From: Gemmatimonadota bacterium
GTDB taxonomy: Bacteria; JAAXHH01
Reading direction: 5' to 3'
DNA length: 64,000 bases
Assembly: GCA_009838645.1 (NCBI GenBank)
Contig: VXRC01000049.1
Span: forward strand, 248,001 to 312,000
Part shown: positions 13,095 to 25,643 of the stretch, one piece after another
Numbering within the stretch: the first letter of the stretch is position 1
How the letters are laid out: every line of letters begins with the position of its first letter
Program-made: the position numbers and the translations under genes
The notes under the pieces: generated by a model
What the model saw: only the letters and a program-made list of their open reading frames with translations
Told to the model about the DNA's origin: nothing
Database searches by the model: none

Positions 13095-13191
13095 CTCGGA
13101 TATGAGCGCCGTCCGCCTTTTACCACAGCCCATCCTGACTGCCCACCAGGGAGGACCGGCGCAAGAACGGATGCCTTGAGAGAACCATCCC

Positions 13192-15585
13192 ATGATCTGT
13201 ACCGAACACCTGCGGATTGTGCCAATGCAGTACGGGGATGCCCACCTCCTTCGTTTCGAAGTCTGTGATCCTGAGCGTGGCTGGCGCACCGTGCTGTCCC
13301 ACCGGGCCGAAAACAAGCACCGGCCCTGGGAGAAAGATGAGGGGTCGTCAGTTGAAGACCTGGAAGTCGCGCCTTCAACGGGTGTAGCGGCCGCGGTCTT
13401 CACGGAAATCGCCGAACAGGGTACGAACGGACTCATCCGTCGCGGAAAGATCGGTGTTCACAGGATCGAGGAACGGATAATCGTCGAGTCCGCCAACCGG
13501 TTCCGCGTCGAGGTATGCGATCGCCTCACCCGTTCTGGCATACTTCTGGCAAGAGTGATGAATCACTACTATTTCGTACCCGATGACCGGGCGATGGGTT
13601 ACGCCCTGCCCCTGGATTTTGCGTGGATTCCCGGGTTGCACGACCATGAAAACCACGTGGCCGGCGACTGGTTCTTTAGGTCGCCCTGTGCAATCGTATT
13701 GGCCCACGGCGTCTATGCCGCCATCGTGCCCGACCTGGACCGCATGCAGGAGCACCCGGACCTGCCCCACGCCCTCGATCTGCGCGCCTGGCATCATCCC
13801 GGCAGTGGAGAGACCTACGGGCTCCCCCGCATTTCCTATGGAATCTGCAGATGGAAACCGGACGGTCATGTGCTGACGGCCCGTGATGATGCCGCGCCGG
13901 TCAGCGGGACCGAGATCACCTATGGCTTTGATCTCCTGATCGGCACCGGAGAGGGTCCTGAATCGATCGTGGCCCAGGTCACGGAGTTGTTGTGGGACAA
14001 ATACGGGTCGCGGTACTTGAAGGATATTCGGCCCCAGGTCATGCCCTTCGAGGAGTACGGAAGACGGTACAGCTACAGGCATGAACTGAATCTATGGGCA
14101 AAGCCCGTATCCTTTGGCAGTCTAGAAGGTTATGGCATCGAAAACACCTGGCGCAGGGGGATAAACTACCATGCCTGGGAGAATGACTTTCAGGCGGGCT
14201 TCGGACTCATGCATTACGGAAGGAAATGGGAGGACGACCATCTCTCTTCCATCGCCGAGGGGATGATCCATCTGCGGCTTTCTTCGCCCAGGCGAGACGG
14301 CGCATTTCCCTGTATATACCATGTAGATACTGCATCCTGGGAAGGGGCCATGTACTGGACCTCGTGGCCCGCACACCCCATGGATGGATACGACCTCCAG
14401 TCCATGGGCGTTACAGCCTGGTGGATGCTTTATTGGTATGAGCAATTCCCCGATCTCGAACGCGGATCAGAAGTACTGAATTGGGTCATCAATTTCTGCC
14501 GGTTCCTGGTCGACGCCCAGCTCCCGTCCGGCGCCATCCCTACCTATTTCGACCGTGAGCTCCACCCCGCACCGCAGCTGAAAGAAGACGCGCCGACGGC
14601 CATCGGCGGCGCGGTGCTGGCGAAGACCGCGCGTATTGTCGGAGATCCTGAAATGGAACGAGCCGCCGCGAAGGCCGGCGCGTTTATGAACCGGGAAATC
14701 GTACCGCGGATGAAGTTCCAGGATTTCGAACTCTTCTATTCCTGCGCGCCGAGACCGCTGTACTGGGTCGATCCACTCAACGGGATCCCGCCGGTCAATA
14801 CGCTGGCTGTTCAGTGGGCCGCCGACCACTACTTGGCCCTGTACCAACTGACGGAAGAGGGTCAGTGGCTGCGACAGGGCGAGTACTGCTTGGGCCTGCT
14901 GTCCCTGTTTCAGCAGGTTTGGGCGCCGAACCGGTTCGGCAAGGCCTATCTCTTTGGCGGTTTCGGCGTGATGAACTGCGACGGGGAATGGAACGACGGG
15001 CGGCAATCCCGTATCGTACCCACCTATGCCGACTACTACGTGGCCACAGGCAAAATCGAATACCTCGAGCGCGCCGTGGCCGCATCCCGAGCCGCCTTCG
15101 CCGCCATGGACATGGAGCATAACCACGCCAATGGCATCAACGACTACCGCATCACCATGGCCGAGCAGGAACAGGTGAAGCCGGGAATCGGGATGTCCCC
15201 CGAAAGTCTCATGCATGGTGATCCCAGGGTGCATTCCGGTGAAGGCGGCGGCTGGACGGGCTTCAACTGGGGTCCCGGCGGCGGTCTGGCCGCGACTGCT
15301 TACCTGGAGCGGCATTTCGGCGGCGTGTGGGTGGACGGTTCATCCAGGAAAGCGGTTGCCATAGATGGTGTCACCGCGGAAGTGACGGGATGGTGGGACA
15401 ATGCCATAAAACTGTCCGTGGTCAACGCGCTGGGAGACCTCGCGATGCCATACTCGGTGCGGCGAGAAATCCCGCTGAAATTTTGCCATCTGGTCGAAGA
15501 CGCATACCGCATCGTGGTGAATGAACAGTATCTGGGAGATATACCACGTGAGACGCTGGAGATGGGACTGAAAATCGAAGTATGA
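13192..15585 (+). CDS. Large probable (alpha/alpha)-toroid protein, function unknown
   Basis: A 797-residue protein without signal peptide. The first third looks beta-rich. The middle and C-terminal part is rich in Trp, Tyr and paired helices spaced like six-hairpin glycosidases, polysaccharide lyases or uronyl epimerases, for example WVINFCRFLVDAQLPSG, AVLAKTARIVGDPEMERAAA, AVQWAADHYLALYQLTEEG and YLERAVAASRAAFAAM. A conserved-looking patch with WENDFQAGFGLMHYGRKWED and GAMYWTSWPAHPMDGYD could line an active site. I do not recognise a named family. It is followed after 28 bases by a PhyH dioxygenase gene, so the two probably act in one pathway, perhaps on a sugar-containing compound. That role is inference. 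Confidence 0.8.
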   Translation: MICTEHLRIVPMQYGDAHLLRFEVCDPERGWRTVLSHRAENKHRPWEKDEGSSVEDLEVAPSTGVAAAVFTEIAEQGTNGLIRRGKIGVHRIEERIIVESANRFRVEVCDRLTRSGILLARVMNHYYFVPDDRAMGYALPLDFAWIPGLHDHENHVAGDWFFRSPCAIVLAHGVYAAIVPDLDRMQEHPDLPHALDLRAWHHPGSGETYGLPRISYGICRWKPDGHVLTARDDAAPVSGTEITYGFDLLIGTGEGPESIVAQVTELLWDKYGSRYLKDIRPQVMPFEEYGRRYSYRHELNLWAKPVSFGSLEGYGIENTWRRGINYHAWENDFQAGFGLMHYGRKWEDDHLSSIAEGMIHLRLSSPRRDGAFPCIYHVDTASWEGAMYWTSWPAHPMDGYDLQSMGVTAWWMLYWYEQFPDLERGSEVLNWVINFCRFLVDAQLPSGAIPTYFDRELHPAPQLKEDAPTAIGGAVLAKTARIVGDPEMERAAAKAGAFMNREIVPRMKFQDFELFYSCAPRPLYWVDPLNGIPPVNTLAVQWAADHYLALYQLTEEGQWLRQGEYCLGLLSLFQQVWAPNRFGKAYLFGGFGVMNCDGEWNDGRQSRIVPTYADYYVATGKIEYLERAVAASRAAFAAMDMEHNHANGINDYRITMAEQEQVKPGIGMSPESLMHGDPRVHSGEGGGWTGFNWGPGGGLAATAYLERHFGGVWVDGSSRKAVAIDGVTAEVTGWWDNAIKLSVVNALGDLAMPYSVRREIPLKFCHLVEDAYRIVVNEQYLGDIPRETLEMGLKIEV

Positions 15586-15613
15586 CATAGCCATTTAGGA
15601 GAAAGGAACGTCC

Positions 15614-16456
15614 TTGAAACTGTCGTTGTCACAGCTCGAAGCGTATCACCGGGACGGATGTGTCATTGTCGACTGCCCCTTTCCGCAGACCCTGGCGCAG
15701 GACTGCCAGAGTGCCGTGGAAAAGGTCGCCATCGATCCTGAGTCGGTCACCGCAGATACCCGACGGAATCATTTTCGGCTGGCTCCGCAGATTCCCGGCT
15801 CCTACTGGTGCGCGCTCGACCATACCGTGCCTTTCCTGAAGATCATGCTCCATCCGGAAATCCTCGAAATGGCCAGGCAACTCTCCGGCGACGACGATGT
15901 CTATTTCCGCAACGGCGGCATCAATGAACTGGCGCCCGACCACTCGTTCTGGTGGCACCGCGACAGCGAAATGGTATACACCGAGTTCATGCACTACTTC
16001 TCGGGCGCATCGGTAGCGCAGGGCTGTCTCCGGGTCATTCCCGGCAGTCACATCGGGTCCGCCGACCGGTTCAAGGAAGAAGCGGAACGGCGGCGGCGCA
16101 ACCAGGGATATCCCGAAGAATACTGGGTCGATGGCATTGCGGACGTGGAATTGCCTGGAGAGGTCCCGCTCGAGGTGAGGCCGGATCAACTCATCGTACG
16201 TGATTCAAGGATCTTTCACGCGACCGGGCTAAATACCTCGAATGAAGGCAGGTCGATGAGCCACTGGCTGTTTCGAGATGGAGCGAGTAACGACCACCGG
16301 TTCCGTTTCGAGGATGTGCTTACCGAGGAACTGATTGAAGCGCTTTCACCTGAGCAGCGGGACGCGCTGTGGCTGGGAAGGGATTTCGATATCGCCGAGG
16401 GATATCGGGATGAACGGGAACGAGAGGATGGGAAGGTGATGTGGGGGGTGGTGTGA
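15614..16456 (+). CDS. Phytanoyl-CoA dioxygenase (PhyH) family protein
   Basis: Fe(II)/2-oxoglutarate-dependent oxygenase, 280 residues, that would hydroxylate or otherwise oxidise a small molecule. It starts with TTG at 15614, supported by AGGAGAAAGGA just upstream. The iron triad is His115-x-Asp117 (WWHRDSE) and His202 (FHATG); Arg213 (EGRSMSHW) is placed to bind 2-oxoglutarate. GCLRVIPGSHIGS is also typical of the family. It is the second gene of a pair with the 797-residue toroid-like protein. PhyH proteins act on many substrates, and phytanoyl-CoA itself is unlikely to be the substrate here. Confidence 0.88.
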   Translation: MKLSLSQLEAYHRDGCVIVDCPFPQTLAQDCQSAVEKVAIDPESVTADTRRNHFRLAPQIPGSYWCALDHTVPFLKIMLHPEILEMARQLSGDDDVYFRNGGINELAPDHSFWWHRDSEMVYTEFMHYFSGASVAQGCLRVIPGSHIGSADRFKEEAERRRRNQGYPEEYWVDGIADVELPGEVPLEVRPDQLIVRDSRIFHATGLNTSNEGRSMSHWLFRDGASNDHRFRFEDVLTEELIEALSPEQRDALWLGRDFDIAEGYRDEREREDGKVMWGVV

Positions 16457-16519: not shown

Positions 16520-17386
16520 TCAAAACCCATAGCGCAGCGACATCCTGAATCCCTGCCCTCTGAGCATCGCCCAGGTTTCGGCGAGGTCTAACTCCAGCGG
16601 TTCGCGGCTGCCGTCCTTCCAGATGACCCGGCCGGTGGCTCTTCCGGTCTCTACGATTCCCCAATTCACGTATCGCCATGCAAGATCGAGCGTGATCCTA
16701 TCCGAAAGAGACGTAGCCACTCCGGCTGCCAGCATTACGGAGAAATCGACCCGCCGGCCGTCCGGAACTATGGTCTGCGTCCTGGGAAACGTCATAAGGT
16801 ATTCGCTGATATCGACATAATGCAGTCCCGCGCCGGCACCCGCGAACACACTAAAGGGACCGTGCGCTATGAAATCCATGTACGCGGTGACCGTACCGGA
16901 AGCGGCCTGCAGGTCCGCCGAAACGGACTGTAGTACATCGGTCTGAAGGAAGTTGGCGGTCCCTTCGAAGGCGAAACTCGGACGGTAGGATATGGACGTT
17001 TCCAGGCGCAGATCCGGTGTCGCGACGTATCCGAGGCCGACCTCGACACCGCCCGCCATGCTGTAATCACCCCGCGTACCTCTAGCGATGCCGTCGCCCC
17101 CTGTTCCACACCCGTAGAGCGCCGCAGGAGACGTACTCAGACAGTTCCTGTCCCCGAACCTGGTTGTCGAGGACAGATCGAGGCTCGCACCGACCCGAAG
17201 GTAGAAATTGGTTCGGTGGGTGGTGAGACCGGATGCGGATTTGGTAGTCTCGGTCTGGAGAGAAGGACCGCTTTCTGAGAAGTTTTGAGCATGGGCGACC
17301 GACGGAATGATAGCCATGGCGCACACGATCGAAGCCAAAGCAGTAAGCGTTCCGGAACAGATGGCGATCTTGCTTTCGTTGGTCAT
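16520..17386 (-). CDS. Outer-membrane beta-barrel protein
   Basis: A 288-residue exported protein. A signal peptide covers about residues 1-34 (hydrophobic core then PSVAHAQ). The rest alternates short beta strands such as TNFYLRVGASLDLSS, AGGVEVGLGYVATPDLRLETSISY, FSVFAGAGAGLHYVDIS and FSVMLAAGVATSLSDRITLDLAWRY, and it ends in MSLRYGF with the terminal Phe used for outer-membrane insertion. This fits an OmpA-like or 8-strand porin-family barrel. It is evidence that the cell has an outer membrane. Function unknown. It lies downstream of the sulfotransferase gene on the same strand, 157 bases apart. Confidence 0.8.
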   Translation of the reverse strand: MTNESKIAICSGTLTALASIVCAMAIIPSVAHAQNFSESGPSLQTETTKSASGLTTHRTNFYLRVGASLDLSSTTRFGDRNCLSTSPAALYGCGTGGDGIARGTRGDYSMAGGVEVGLGYVATPDLRLETSISYRPSFAFEGTANFLQTDVLQSVSADLQAASGTVTAYMDFIAHGPFSVFAGAGAGLHYVDISEYLMTFPRTQTIVPDGRRVDFSVMLAAGVATSLSDRITLDLAWRYVNWGIVETGRATGRVIWKDGSREPLELDLAETWAMLRGQGFRMSLRYGF

Positions 17387-17543: not shown

Positions 17544-18332
17544 TTAAGCGTACTTGTCATGTCCGGACTCCGAGGAAGTATCAATCCGTTCTTTGATTCC
17601 TGCTCGGTAGCGGTCAATCCATTCGGCGTTGAGTTCGTCTGCAAGACGTCTGTTATGAGTCGAAATCTGGCGTCCGGGTGGTAGCTTGAGGCCGAGGAAG
17701 TCAAGGATTTCACAGACTACTTTGACGGGGTCAGCGTCCAGGTCTTCATACCGCACCATATGCGGCTGAATTCCAGCGGAAGCAAACCACGCCCGCCAAG
17801 ACGAATTGTGATCTTCTATTACTTGCACCAACTTATGGATCAGATCGAAGTCGAAACGTGGTTCTATTACCGGCTGTTTCAGCTTCTCCCGATCGGTCTG
17901 GTGCCAAACATTGGATTGCTCAGCCCGGTGCCACGACACAGCCTGCGCCAGCACATCGTCACGTTGCAGATAGATGAACCCCGTATGACCGAGCGCCTGG
18001 TTCAACAGTTCGATATCGTGACCAGCGGGAGCAGGATAGACGGTACCCAGTCTGTCGAACAAATAATCCAAAGTACCCCACATAATCCGGGCGGCAAATA
18101 CTCCGTTTTCTGACCTGCCCGCGGCGAGGGCAGCACGTATGAACTCGGAATACTCGAAGATCCTATGGGAAGAGCGGACAATGTCCCATCGCTCAGCCCA
18201 CAACTGCTCATCGGGTTGTCGGAAGTACGACTCGGGCTGACCCGCGAATTTCGTAGACGCCATCAATCCACACAACAAGGTACTGCCCGTACGTGGGGTG
18301 GCGCAGATCAAATACGAATCGATGCGTCCCAT
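17544..18332 (-). CDS. Stf0-type sulfotransferase
   Basis: Transfers sulfate from PAPS to a hydroxyl, probably of a sugar or lipid. The start at 18332 is set by AGGAAGG 7 bases upstream; a longer frame exists but lacks support. The 262-residue product opens with YLICATPRTGSTLLCGLM, whose TPRTGSTLL (12-20) is the PAPS 5'-phosphosulfate loop, followed by GQPESYFR as in Stf0 proteins. Later parts include IYLQRDDVLAQAVSWHRAEQ and VRYEDLDADPVKVVCEILDFLG, both family signatures. Mycobacterial Stf0 sulfates trehalose; the acceptor here is unknown. Confidence 0.85.
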   Translation of the reverse strand: MGRIDSYLICATPRTGSTLLCGLMASTKFAGQPESYFRQPDEQLWAERWDIVRSSHRIFEYSEFIRAALAAGRSENGVFAARIMWGTLDYLFDRLGTVYPAPAGHDIELLNQALGHTGFIYLQRDDVLAQAVSWHRAEQSNVWHQTDREKLKQPVIEPRFDFDLIHKLVQVIEDHNSSWRAWFASAGIQPHMVRYEDLDADPVKVVCEILDFLGLKLPPGRQISTHNRRLADELNAEWIDRYRAGIKERIDTSSESGHDKYA

Positions 18333-18536
18333 CCAACAACCTTCCTCACTGGTTCTTGATAACCTGTCTACGCAGGCCAAACACACCATCCAACCTGTTA
18401 TCGAACCTTAGTCTATGCGAGATGATTGTCGTCAGGGTTAAGGCAGAGCAACCGGCGCAGGTCGACGATAGGCGGCCCACCCCGTTCATCCGATTTTGAT
18501 GCGGAGACAACGTTGACCCGGCCAGTGAGAATCCCC

Positions 18537-22655: not shown

Positions 22656-23480
22656 TCACTCCTTCACCGCCCCCAACGTGATCCCCTGCACGAACTCCCG
22701 CTGCATCGCGAGGAACAGGGCCATGATGGGCAGGATGGACAGCAGTGTCCCGGCCATGAGCATGCCGTATTCCTGGCGGTAGACGCCCACCAGGCTGGCC
22801 AGGCCGAGGGGCAGGGTGTACTTGGCGGCGTCCCGCAGCACGATCATGGGCCAGAGGAACTCGTTCCAGGCCCCCAGGAACCCGAAGATGCTCAGGGCGC
22901 CCATGGCCGGCTTCACGGTCGGGATGATGACGCGCCAGTAGATACCGAATTCGGAGGTGCCGTCGATCCGCGCCGCATCGAGCAGATCCGAGGGTACGCC
23001 GAGAATGAACTGCCGCATGAGGAACACGCCGAAGCCACTGGATGCCAGGTAGGGCAGGATCACGCCCTGGTAGGTGTCGAGCCAGCCAAATTTGTACAAC
23101 AGGGTGAACAGGGGCACCAGCACCAGGTGAAAGGGGATCATCATGGAGGCGAGGACGATGGCGAAGAGGACGCCGCGGCCCCGGAACGAGTACTTGGCAA
23201 AGGCGAATCCGCCCATGGTGGCGATGGCGAGAAGCAGCAGCGTGTGCGAGGTGGCCAGGAAGGTGCTGTTGACGACGTACTGGATGATCGGCATTTCCTG
23301 GAACAGCCGGGTGAAGTTCTCGAGTGTGGGGTCCTGGGGGAGAAAGGTCGGCGGGTAGGTGAAGATTTCGCCCGACGGCTTGAAGGAAGCGGATACCACC
23401 CAGAACAGCGGCGTCAGGACCAGGACGGTCAGCATTATCAGGAGCACATAGGTGATGGTGGTGCGAACAGGGTTTCTCAT
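22656..23480 (-). CDS. Sugar ABC transporter permease (MalG/UgpE type)
   Basis: Inner-membrane subunit of a carbohydrate importer. The 274-residue product has six predicted membrane segments and the cytoplasmic EAA loop DAARIDGTSEFGIYWRVIIP, which docks the ATPase. It also shows the typical N-terminal pattern LTPLFWVVSASFKPSGEIF. It starts 4 bases after the stop of the partner permease, so the two are translated together. This is the last gene of the transport block; no ATP-binding subunit follows, so a shared ATPase encoded elsewhere must energise it. Confidence 0.9.
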   Translation of the reverse strand: MRNPVRTTITYVLLIMLTVLVLTPLFWVVSASFKPSGEIFTYPPTFLPQDPTLENFTRLFQEMPIIQYVVNSTFLATSHTLLLLAIATMGGFAFAKYSFRGRGVLFAIVLASMMIPFHLVLVPLFTLLYKFGWLDTYQGVILPYLASSGFGVFLMRQFILGVPSDLLDAARIDGTSEFGIYWRVIIPTVKPAMGALSIFGFLGAWNEFLWPMIVLRDAAKYTLPLGLASLVGVYRQEYGMLMAGTLLSILPIMALFLAMQREFVQGITLGAVKE

Positions 23481-23484
23481 GGTG

Positions 23485-24336
23485 TCAGTTTTCCCTGAGT
23501 ACGCCGAAAAACCGGACCTGTATGATGGAAATGACCCCGATGATCACGGCCAGGGCCCAGCCGATGGTCGCCGCGTAGCCGAGGTTGATGAACTCGAATC
23601 CATGCTTGTACAGGTACATCACCATGGTCATGCTCGCATTGCCGGGGCCGCCCTCCGTGAGTACGTAGGGCAGATCGAAGAGCTGGAACGAGCCAATCAT
23701 GGACGTGATCACCACGAAAGCGATGACGGGCTTGAGGGCGGGGACCGTCACGTGCACGAAGCTCTGCCAGGGTCCCGCGCCGTCCACCGCGGCCGCTTCG
23801 TAGAGCTCCTGCCGAATGCTCTGAAGCCCGGCGAGGAAGTAGACCATGTTGAATCCCGCCCACCGCCATACCCCGGCCAGTACGAGGGCGGGCATGACCA
23901 GGTCGGGATCCTGAAGCCACGGGATTTCGGAACCGAGCACCCTGTTCACCAGGCCGTAGCGCCGGTCGTACAGCAGGTAGAAGATCACGGCGATGAAGAC
24001 GCCGGAGATCAGCACCGGCGAGAAGAAGGAAAGACGGAACAGGTTCCGGCCTTTCAGGCGGGCGTTGCTGAGGAGCAGGGCGAGGGCCAGGGCCACCGGC
24101 AGTTGCAGGAGCAGGCTGCCCGCGGCGAAATAGGCCGTGTTCCAGAGGGCGGTCCAGAAGAGCGGGTCGGCGATCAACCGTTCGATGTTCTCCAGGCCTA
24201 CGAAGGTCTGGTTCTGCATGCCCCGGACACTGTACGTGCTAAGACGGATCGAATCAAACAGGGGGTAGACCATGAAGACGCCGAAGAGCGCGAAGAATGG
24301 CGCGAGGAAGAAGTAGGGGGCGTACCGGGGTTTCAT
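23485..24336 (-). CDS. Sugar ABC transporter permease (MalF/UgpA type)
   Basis: Membrane partner of the MalG-type subunit. The 283-residue protein has six membrane segments and the EAA loop EAAAVDGAGPWQSFVHVTVP. APYFFLAPFFALFGVFMVYPLFDSI at the N-terminus is typical of the UgpA branch. Its ATG overlaps the stop of the binding-protein gene by four bases (ATGA), a sign of translational coupling. The substrate is probably a sugar or a glycerol-phosphate-like compound; not readable. Confidence 0.9.
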   Translation of the reverse strand: MKPRYAPYFFLAPFFALFGVFMVYPLFDSIRLSTYSVRGMQNQTFVGLENIERLIADPLFWTALWNTAYFAAGSLLLQLPVALALALLLSNARLKGRNLFRLSFFSPVLISGVFIAVIFYLLYDRRYGLVNRVLGSEIPWLQDPDLVMPALVLAGVWRWAGFNMVYFLAGLQSIRQELYEAAAVDGAGPWQSFVHVTVPALKPVIAFVVITSMIGSFQLFDLPYVLTEGGPGNASMTMVMYLYKHGFEFINLGYAATIGWALAVIIGVISIIQVRFFGVLREN

Positions 24337-25643
24337 TCGGTCTCTGCTGTGTTATCCCGCAGCGCGCGGACCTGCTCTGCCAGGTGGGACAGCGCATCGG
24401 CGGGCGTCCGAATCCCATTGGCGGCTTCGTACACGGCCTGCCGCAGCAGATCGTTGGCTTCGGCCCAATACGGGTTCAGGTGAAATCCGGGGATGTCGGG
24501 CGCGAGTTCCGTCAGGCTTCTGCCCAGGACCTGCCCGTCCAGGTACGCCTCGGACTCGCCGTACACCGGGTTGGACCACGCCGACCGGATCGGCGGGATG
24601 ATAAAGGTCTTGCGGTAACGGTTCGCGAGGGCCTCGTCGTCCATGTAGGCGAACTTGGCGAATTCCCAGGCGAGATCCGGGTTCTCGGCCTGTTTGGTAA
24701 CCGCGATCATGGTGCCGCCCCAGGTCGAGGTGCGTCGCTCGCCTTCCCGCCAGGCCGGCAGGGGCATGGCACGCCATTTCCCTTCCAGTTCCGGGACGAA
24801 CCTCCGAACGAAGCTAATGTACCAGTCCGGTGCCAGCACACCCAGAATGACGTTTTCCTTCATGGCGGCGTAGCTGGCCGGGTCCTGGGAGAATTCGGGG
24901 ATGGCCAGTTGCGCCTCGTTGAGCAGGCTGCAGTAGAATTCCAGGGTGGAAACGGCGATGTCGTTGTCGATGATGACCCCGCCGTCCTCATCGAACATGC
25001 CGCCGCCGTTCTGCAGGAGCATAAGCCAGAAATGGCCCGGCTTGTGGGCGCTCAGCATGATCGGATAGCGGTCGGGCCGCCCGTCTCCGTCCTCGTCGCG
25101 GGCAAGGGGTCTCGTCTCGCGGACGAAATCATCCCAGGTTTCGATGGATGCCGGATCGATCCCCGCTTCCTCATACACGTCGTGACGGTACAGGAGCATG
25201 ACGGGATGGACGTCGCGGGGCAGGCCGTACACCCGGCCGCCTAAGGACCAGGGTGCGAGGCGCGCCTGTACGAACTCATCCGCGATCCCCTCGCGCTCGA
25301 TGCGGTCGGTCAGGTCCACGAAGCCGATTTCTTCCTTCGTGCCCTTGAAGAACCGGCCTACCGATGAGATTTCTACCTCGGAAAGATCGGGGCCGCCGAT
25401 GCCGGACAGGAAGGCGGCAAGGAGCTTGTCGTGCAGTTTCGAGATCAGCCGCAGTTCGACCCTGACGCCGGGATGGGCTGCCTCGAACGCCGGGATCCTG
25501 GCACTGAACTCATCGTAGTGCGTCTGCGCGAAGATCCAGAACTCCAGCGTGTCCGAGCGGTCATCGCCGCGGAACACGATGACGGGAAAGGCCAGGAGGA
25601 AGAGCAGGCCGAAGATCAGGGGAGCCTTGCCGAGGTGGTTCAT
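24333..25643 (-). CDS. Sugar ABC transporter substrate-binding protein, probably membrane-anchored
   Basis: Binding subunit (SBP_bac_1 family, 436 residues) of the importer encoded downstream. The N-terminal hydrophobic stretch (PLIFGLLFLLAFPVIVF) is followed by RGDDRSDTLEFW without a lipobox Cys and without a clear cleavage site, so an uncleaved anchor is likely. The core shows FSARIPAFEAAHPGVRVELR, DLSEVEISSVGRFF, TWDDFVRETRPLA and an EF-hand-like Ca loop DEDGDGRPDRYP. Later STWGGTMIAVTKQAENPDLAWEFAKF fits sugar-binding proteins. It overlaps the next permease by four bases. Confidence 0.87.
   Translation of the reverse strand: MNHLGKAPLIFGLLFLLAFPVIVFRGDDRSDTLEFWIFAQTHYDEFSARIPAFEAAHPGVRVELRLISKLHDKLLAAFLSGIGGPDLSEVEISSVGRFFKGTKEEIGFVDLTDRIEREGIADEFVQARLAPWSLGGRVYGLPRDVHPVMLLYRHDVYEEAGIDPASIETWDDFVRETRPLARDEDGDGRPDRYPIMLSAHKPGHFWLMLLQNGGGMFDEDGGVIIDNDIAVSTLEFYCSLLNEAQLAIPEFSQDPASYAAMKENVILGVLAPDWYISFVRRFVPELEGKWRAMPLPAWREGERRTSTWGGTMIAVTKQAENPDLAWEFAKFAYMDDEALANRYRKTFIIPPIRSAWSNPVYGESEAYLDGQVLGRSLTELAPDIPGFHLNPYWAEANDLLRQAVYEAANGIRTPADALSHLAEQVRALRDNTAETE

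Follow-up and report, generated by a model that had tools for sequence, protein, structure and literature searches.

TOR, a protein of an unnamed family from a Gemmatimonadota genome, as a probable carbohydrate-active enzyme of the helical-toroid type

The stretch of DNA analysed in this work (64,000 nucleotides, viz. positions 248,001 to 312,000 of contig VXRC01000049.1 from the Gemmatimonadota bacterium assembly GCA_009838645.1; hereafter the window) contains a gene for a 797-residue protein, designated here as TOR, and directly downstream of it a gene for an oxygenase of the PhyH family. TOR is very probably a carbohydrate-active enzyme of the helical-toroid type, an assignment of both fold and sugar-enzyme class that is based on its structural model, and it represents an unnamed family (in Pfam and NCBIfam) of a known kind of enzyme. 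In the function proposed here, TOR would act on carbohydrates inside the cell as an exo-acting enzyme, probably a glycoside hydrolase (GH) above all, and for the specific reading of TOR as an exo-acting glycoside hydrolase of an unnamed family the chances appear evenly balanced. The gene neighbourhoods suggest that, for the wider TOR family, GH172 is better supported as a partner than PhyH. As the family has no name in these databases, yet is present in named strains and has both a clear signature and a statistically supported GH172 partner, it can be assayed at once.

Fold and candidate active site of TOR

At an E-value of 1, TOR showed no match to any model in Pfam or NCBIfam, and a search with it against the PDB sequences gave chance-level matches only (best E 0.26). 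A preliminary description of this locus, which could name no family for the protein and pointed to its richness in tryptophan, was correct in both respects: the 28 Trp residues of TOR make up 3.5% of its sequence, as compared with 0.3-1.7% in five neighbouring proteins. The positions it gave for TOR and the adjoining gene were likewise confirmed. In the open-access literature, where the family lacks a name to search by, the available portions of the papers included none recognisable as describing it.

Relatives of TOR were obtained from one scan of genome contigs, in which 221 of the 251 pattern matches were relatives, and the best 80 of these 221 were taken. An alignment of 64 homologs (the TOR of the window and 63 of 81 listed stretches) was used to build an AlphaFold2 model of TOR, which has a mean predicted local distance difference test score (pLDDT) of 87.1 and a predicted template modelling score of 0.92. 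The gene, the three parts distinguished in this model, and the conserved motifs seen in the alignment are as follows.

13192..15585, + strand: TOR, 797-residue toroid protein of an unnamed family; by eye, a signal peptide is not evident
13192..13947, + strand: N-terminal beta-sandwich of TOR, residues 1-252 (AlphaFold2 model)
13957..15318, + strand: helical toroid of TOR, residues 256-709 (AlphaFold2 model)
15325..15582, + strand: C-terminal beta domain of TOR, residues 712-797 (AlphaFold2 model)
14722..14745, + strand: motif at residues 511-518, with D511, E513, S517 and C518 identical in 62/62 rows (alignment)
14956..15003, + strand: signature motif at residues 589-604, with nine residues identical in 62/62 rows (alignment)
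15202..15216, + strand: E671...H675, candidate catalytic or binding residues, each conserved in 61/62 rows (alignment)

The results from Foldseek and VIA described below are matches of fold and carry no weight against families missing from them. In VIA, residues 284-710 of TOR align with the GH76 structure 6u4z with a Z-score of 24.6 and a root-mean-square deviation (rmsd) of 3.5 over 338 residues, and the GH76 alpha-1,6-mannanases as a group (6u4z, 4v1s and others) share the same helical toroid, with Z-scores of 20.8-24.6 over about 300-340 residues. As a yardstick, the tool cites five models, mostly helical and without a clear Foldseek match, for which the best Z-score was about 14. However, the identity between TOR and the GH76 enzymes, which have a catalytic Asp-Asp pair, is only 9-11%, and the aligned range is limited to the toroid. 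In Foldseek, the top PDB matches were GH94-type phosphorylases (best E 5.3e-10, similar length), and further matches included the lyase 5no8, GH63, GH52 and unsaturated glucuronyl hydrolases (GH88-type); the whole-chain TM-scores (template modelling scores) were low, about 0.3. Because the model is confident and the fold matches are to GH76 and GH94, the earlier guess of a toroid of the carbohydrate-active type was right, and the model and the fold search show a helical toroid behind a beta-sandwich that is most like carbohydrate-active enzymes. The weak Pfam matches found at E 0.01 among the 64 TOR members, which involve six families (best E 3.5e-6), point in the same direction, viz. GH88 in 20/64, C5-epimerase in 10/64, GH127 in 6/64 and GH47 in 5/64 members. 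Neither GH76, for which Pfam presumably holds a model, nor GH116 is among these six families, and in NCBIfam a single model was matched, by 1/64 members (E 0.00093).

The GH94-type cellobiose and chitobiose phosphorylases, whose domains are arranged as a sandwich, a toroid and a C-terminal beta domain, share this order with TOR as well as its approximate length, and as the best Foldseek matches they raise the alternative that TOR is a phosphorylase with a GH94-like mechanism. Their identity with TOR is about 10%, and they are not among its PDB sequence or profile matches. Phosphorylases are intracellular, and in the window's clade no signal peptide is evident among the members whose N-terminus is complete (by eye, with starts chosen by a script), which is consistent with this alternative. 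However, TOR and the GH94-type enzymes superpose poorly over their whole length (TM-scores about 0.26, rmsd near 25 Å). Further, many distant members of the family look exported, as judged in the same manner, and phosphorolysis is unlikely in such a location. A phosphorylase function for TOR is, hence, improbable.

The relatives of TOR have in common an acidic signature, DxE...GGFGVMNxDGEWNDxR. Conservation was counted in 62 of the 64 aligned rows, two partial rows being left out, and 22 positions of TOR were found to be identical in all 62. Two of them (R163 and H226) are located in the beta-sandwich and the other 20 in the helical part, viz. W268, W329, P366, G370, G447, D511, E513, S517, C518, W577, G589, G590, N595, D597, E599, W600, N601, D602, R604 and F636. 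Sixteen of these 20 residues sit in loops, and E513, D602 and R604 are in short helices that follow the loops; toroid enzymes usually carry their active sites on loops of this sort. Five of the invariant residues in the helical part are acids (D511, E513, D597, E599 and D602), and in the 62 rows there is no invariant Tyr in TOR and no invariant His in its helical part. We infer from this alignment that the chemistry of an acid-base glycosidase is favoured over that usual for lyases and epimerases. In the proposed mechanism, the beta-sandwich would brace the helical toroid, and a predicted pocket would be lined by the carboxylates D511/E513, D597/E599/D602 and E671, which would provide the general acid and the general base for attack on a terminal sugar.

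Association with GH172 and the possible substrate

Among the same-strand neighbours of the distant TOR members (a set of 97 chosen from 168 listed neighbours), the commonest family was DUF2961 (PF11175, corresponding to GH172), with 10 occurrences. A profile search of 79 of the 80 TOR loci, L067 having been missed by the script, found DUF2961 in the flanks of 25/79, in 10 of them within 1.5 kb, and all of these loci were among L053-L101. The number expected by chance was worked out for 40 of the 54 loci L048-L101, viz. those of at least 12 kb, under a model of uniform placement in which the observed matches came from a home-made profile, the copy numbers came from PF11175, and L067 was counted as lacking GH172. 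A GH172 gene was present in the flanks of 21 of these 40 distant loci, versus 1.1 expected. DUF2961 was also found in all 40 genomes that carry these TOR loci and was absent from 14/14 control genomes. In one case (L080:9560-13045), a single open frame encodes TOR and a separate C-terminal DUF2961 domain (residues 898-1154, 166.6 bits), representing a natural fusion; a Pfam scan found no such domain within the TOR of the window. In the class to which L029 belongs, TOR is present in 10/396 genomes and DUF2961 in 151/396, including all 10 of those with TOR (Fisher p 5.4e-5, or about 1e-3 if seven lineages are counted). In the window's genus, DUF2961 is present in 12/12 genomes, inclusive of those without TOR; the window genome has three matches, which are either on contigs other than that of TOR or about 80 kb away from it. 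In Sphingobacterium, the order of genes in the operon is GH172, DUF6786, fucose isomerase, MFS, FGGY kinase, TOR and LacI; these Pfam labels are those of L067, and the same order, with GH172 present, is seen in L088.

Members of GH172 have been described as exo-alpha-D-arabinofuranosidases (PMC10115798) and as difructose-dianhydride enzymes (PMC8605356). The wider TOR family would work beside GH172 enzymes acting as alpha-D-arabino- or fructofuranosidases, and because of this link TOR itself may be a furanosidase, although a furanoside-bearing glycan as its substrate is a tentative suggestion. A precedent for such an arrangement is reported in PMC10509167, where the GH116 exo-beta-D-arabinofuranosidase ExoMA2, consisting of a beta-sandwich and an (alpha/alpha)6 catalytic barrel, is a partner of GH172 in the breakdown of D-arabinan. 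In its boldest form, which we regard as possible but doubtful, TOR would found a new family of toroid furanosidases, spread by label over more than 12 phyla, which partners GH172 on glycans bearing D-arabinose or D-fructose and fills the role of GH116 in D-arabinan systems. If TOR is a furanosidase, it would provide a new tool for arabinan-type glycans.

Several points weigh against the reading of TOR as an exo-acting glycoside hydrolase that works beside GH172. The flanks fetched for 19/40 of the distant loci contain no GH172, and among loci L022-L052, a group that includes the window's clade, the profile search found no flanking GH172 at all. Of the 10/10 genomes counted in the class of L029, four are close relatives of one another, and one (G422) recurs among the 40 of the expected-number test. 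Both counts are confounded by a sugar-degrading lifestyle. Within the protein, the sandwich residue H226, invariant in 62/62 rows, might take part in catalysis, and residue 643 of TOR (window 15118-15120) is His where 59/62 rows, including the four genus siblings in the alignment, have Glu. Lastly, the toroid fold also serves lyases, epimerases, phosphorylases and, as has been proposed, dehydratases; members of GH154, a toroid family taken for hydrolases, are reported to have dehydratase activity, and the authors of PMC12269599 propose to reclassify the family.

Alternatively, TOR may be a non-hydrolytic enzyme that acts on a terminal sugar to prime or rearrange it, be it as a dehydratase or lyase of uronates or as an epimerase or isomerase of sugars. 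The lyase BACCELL_00875 (5no8, which we take to belong to PL27) aligns in VIA with residues 5-708 of TOR (Z 20.9, 500 residues aligned), the cellobiose 2-epimerases reach Z-scores of about 20, and the weak profile matches to C5-epimerase and GH88, the invariance of H226, the near invariance of H675 and the dehydratase activity proposed for GH154 toroids are all in keeping with this alternative. The alignment with 5no8 has an rmsd of 7.6 and 9% identity, with sequence-profile E-values of 0.27 and 0.37, and the GH154 member 8OI4 is not among the PDB profile matches of TOR at E 1. However, the lack of an invariant Tyr and of an invariant helical His, the five invariant acids, which suit acid-base glycosidases better, and the association with GH172 hydrolases argue against it. 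A non-hydrolytic TOR is, accordingly, considered a less likely explanation than an exo-acting glycoside hydrolase.

The PhyH gene adjoining TOR

The preliminary description had further proposed that TOR and its neighbour might together open or modify a sugar-bearing compound by a new route. Two features are relevant in this regard.

15614..16456, + strand: PhyH-family Fe(II)/2-oxoglutarate oxygenase, 280 residues, TTG start (Pfam match)
15597..15606, + strand: purine-rich stretch (AGGAG/AAAGG), likely ribosome-binding site of the PhyH gene (sequence, just 5' of the TTG)

The identification of the neighbour as an Fe/2-oxoglutarate oxygenase of the PhyH family stands, as its match to PF05721 scores 43.5 bits versus a cut-off of 22. 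The PhyH motif consists of an HxD...H iron triad and an Arg that binds 2-oxoglutarate, and the residues H115-x-D117, H202 and R213 are invariant in 5/5 aligned members from the genus; an AlphaFold2 model made from 5 close sequences has a pLDDT of 32. At E 1e-40, relatives of this protein are confined to the genus among 16 genomes of the phylum.

In the genus, TOR and PhyH are adjacent in 8/9 TOR-bearing genomes, and in the ninth (G010) the contig ends inside TOR. The PhyH ortholog is present in 10/12 genus genomes. Two of the ten, G001 and G008, have it at the same site, between a PEP-hydrolase-like gene and an outer-membrane gene, with no TOR there or elsewhere in either genome. In both of them, the DNA that immediately precedes PhyH is homologous to the DNA upstream of TOR, to about position 13,095. 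Because TOR sits between this shared upstream region and PhyH, co-transcription of the two genes is plausible. A relative of the window PhyH was found in the flanks of none of the 75 loci taken from outside the genus (E 1e-5, and also at E 1 with a five-member profile from the genus). When 72 neighbours from the eight loci of the close clade were scanned with Pfam, two PhyH proteins were revealed, both in L033, the nearest relative outside the genus, and both of other kinds than the window PhyH; the one adjoining TOR is on the opposite strand. TOR-PhyH as a conserved pair was, therefore, rejected.

That the two proteins nevertheless form one pathway, in which PhyH would hydroxylate a glycosylated compound from which TOR removes the sugar or on which it alters it, is suggested by their common strand, the 28 bp between them, their adjacency and shared upstream DNA in the genus, and the occurrence of a different PhyH beside TOR in L033. 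However, G001 and G008 have PhyH without TOR, and at E 0.001 PhyH matches are absent from three of the eight TOR genomes of the close clade (those of L027, L028 and L034). Matches to PF05721 number 111 in the window genome (3.8 Mb in 50 contigs), 144 in the genome of L033 (6.1 Mb) and 63-69 in those of L029-L032. Because of the 111 matches in a genome of this size, a PhyH neighbour is unremarkable; by chance it would be expected for about 6% of genes (two neighbours per gene and an estimated 3,500 or so genes). Remarkably many phyH genes have also been reported for Poribacteria (PMC3909097). The single new route is therefore not supported, this PhyH being found beside TOR only in the genus; we regard such a pathway as improbable, and likewise think it unlikely that PhyH is a functional partner of TOR. 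PhyH is a genus-specific neighbour that is probably co-transcribed with TOR and whose function would not depend on it. The tempting pairing is weak in a genome with more than 100 PhyH matches, and the interest lies in the TOR family and its link to GH172.

Distribution and decay of TOR, and other genes of the window

By label, the relatives of TOR, considering the best 80 of 221, come from more than 12 bacterial phyla and include strains of Paenibacillus, Cohnella, Sphingobacterium and Zhouia, and the nearest are metagenome-assembled genomes (MAGs) labelled Gemmatimonadetes or Candidatus Latescibacterota. In the TOR tree, the sequence from the window and those of four members of its genus are joined by L033 (another Latescibacterota MAG) and L028 (Planctomycetota), and the clade next takes in further Planctomycetota and Caldilineales, giving 12 rows with a Shimodaira-Hasegawa-like approximate likelihood ratio support of 100. 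No relative was found in viral contigs or plasmids, where one of the searches covered close relatives only. For the part of this clade that lies beyond the genus, the neighbours (72 proteins from L027-L034, leaving out 8 TOR frames, one frame of 127 residues and one of 1,335 residues) include, in the Pfam scan, no partner shared across lineages; CobW is beside TOR in Caldilineales, a GH95-like gene and UxuA are near that of L033, and DUF4838 occurs in L028.

TOR is present in 9/12 genomes of the window's genus. Both genes are under purifying selection, the median ratio of nonsynonymous to synonymous substitution rates (dN/dS) being 0.164 for TOR (21 pairs from 7 genomes) and 0.149 for PhyH, and because of this selection TOR is not a chance open reading frame. 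In a two-gene DNA tree of the genus with outgroups, 8/10 inner branches were unresolved. In a midpoint-rooted five-gene tree that includes PhyH, the TOR-less G008 is nested among the TOR-bearing genomes (100/99), which suggests that TOR was lost in G008. The TOR copies of two other genomes look damaged, viz. G007 (L003), with an in-frame TAG stop, and G011 (L104:7240-7360), with a frame-shifting tandem repeat, and this damage represents either real decay or assembly error.

Three other observations concern the DNA that follows PhyH. An outer-membrane beta-barrel gene (window 16523-17386) shows a higher rate of evolution than the genes around it (median dN/dS 0.377), and its protein shows a weak match, far under the cut-off, to the model for the adhesin Adr. 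A Stf0-type sulfotransferase gene is located at window 17547-18389, and among the genus loci compared by tblastn, some of which end before this site, it is found in the window and G008 only. Lastly, window 22659-25643 encodes an ABC transporter, with two permeases and a solute-binding protein of the SBP_bac_1 family.

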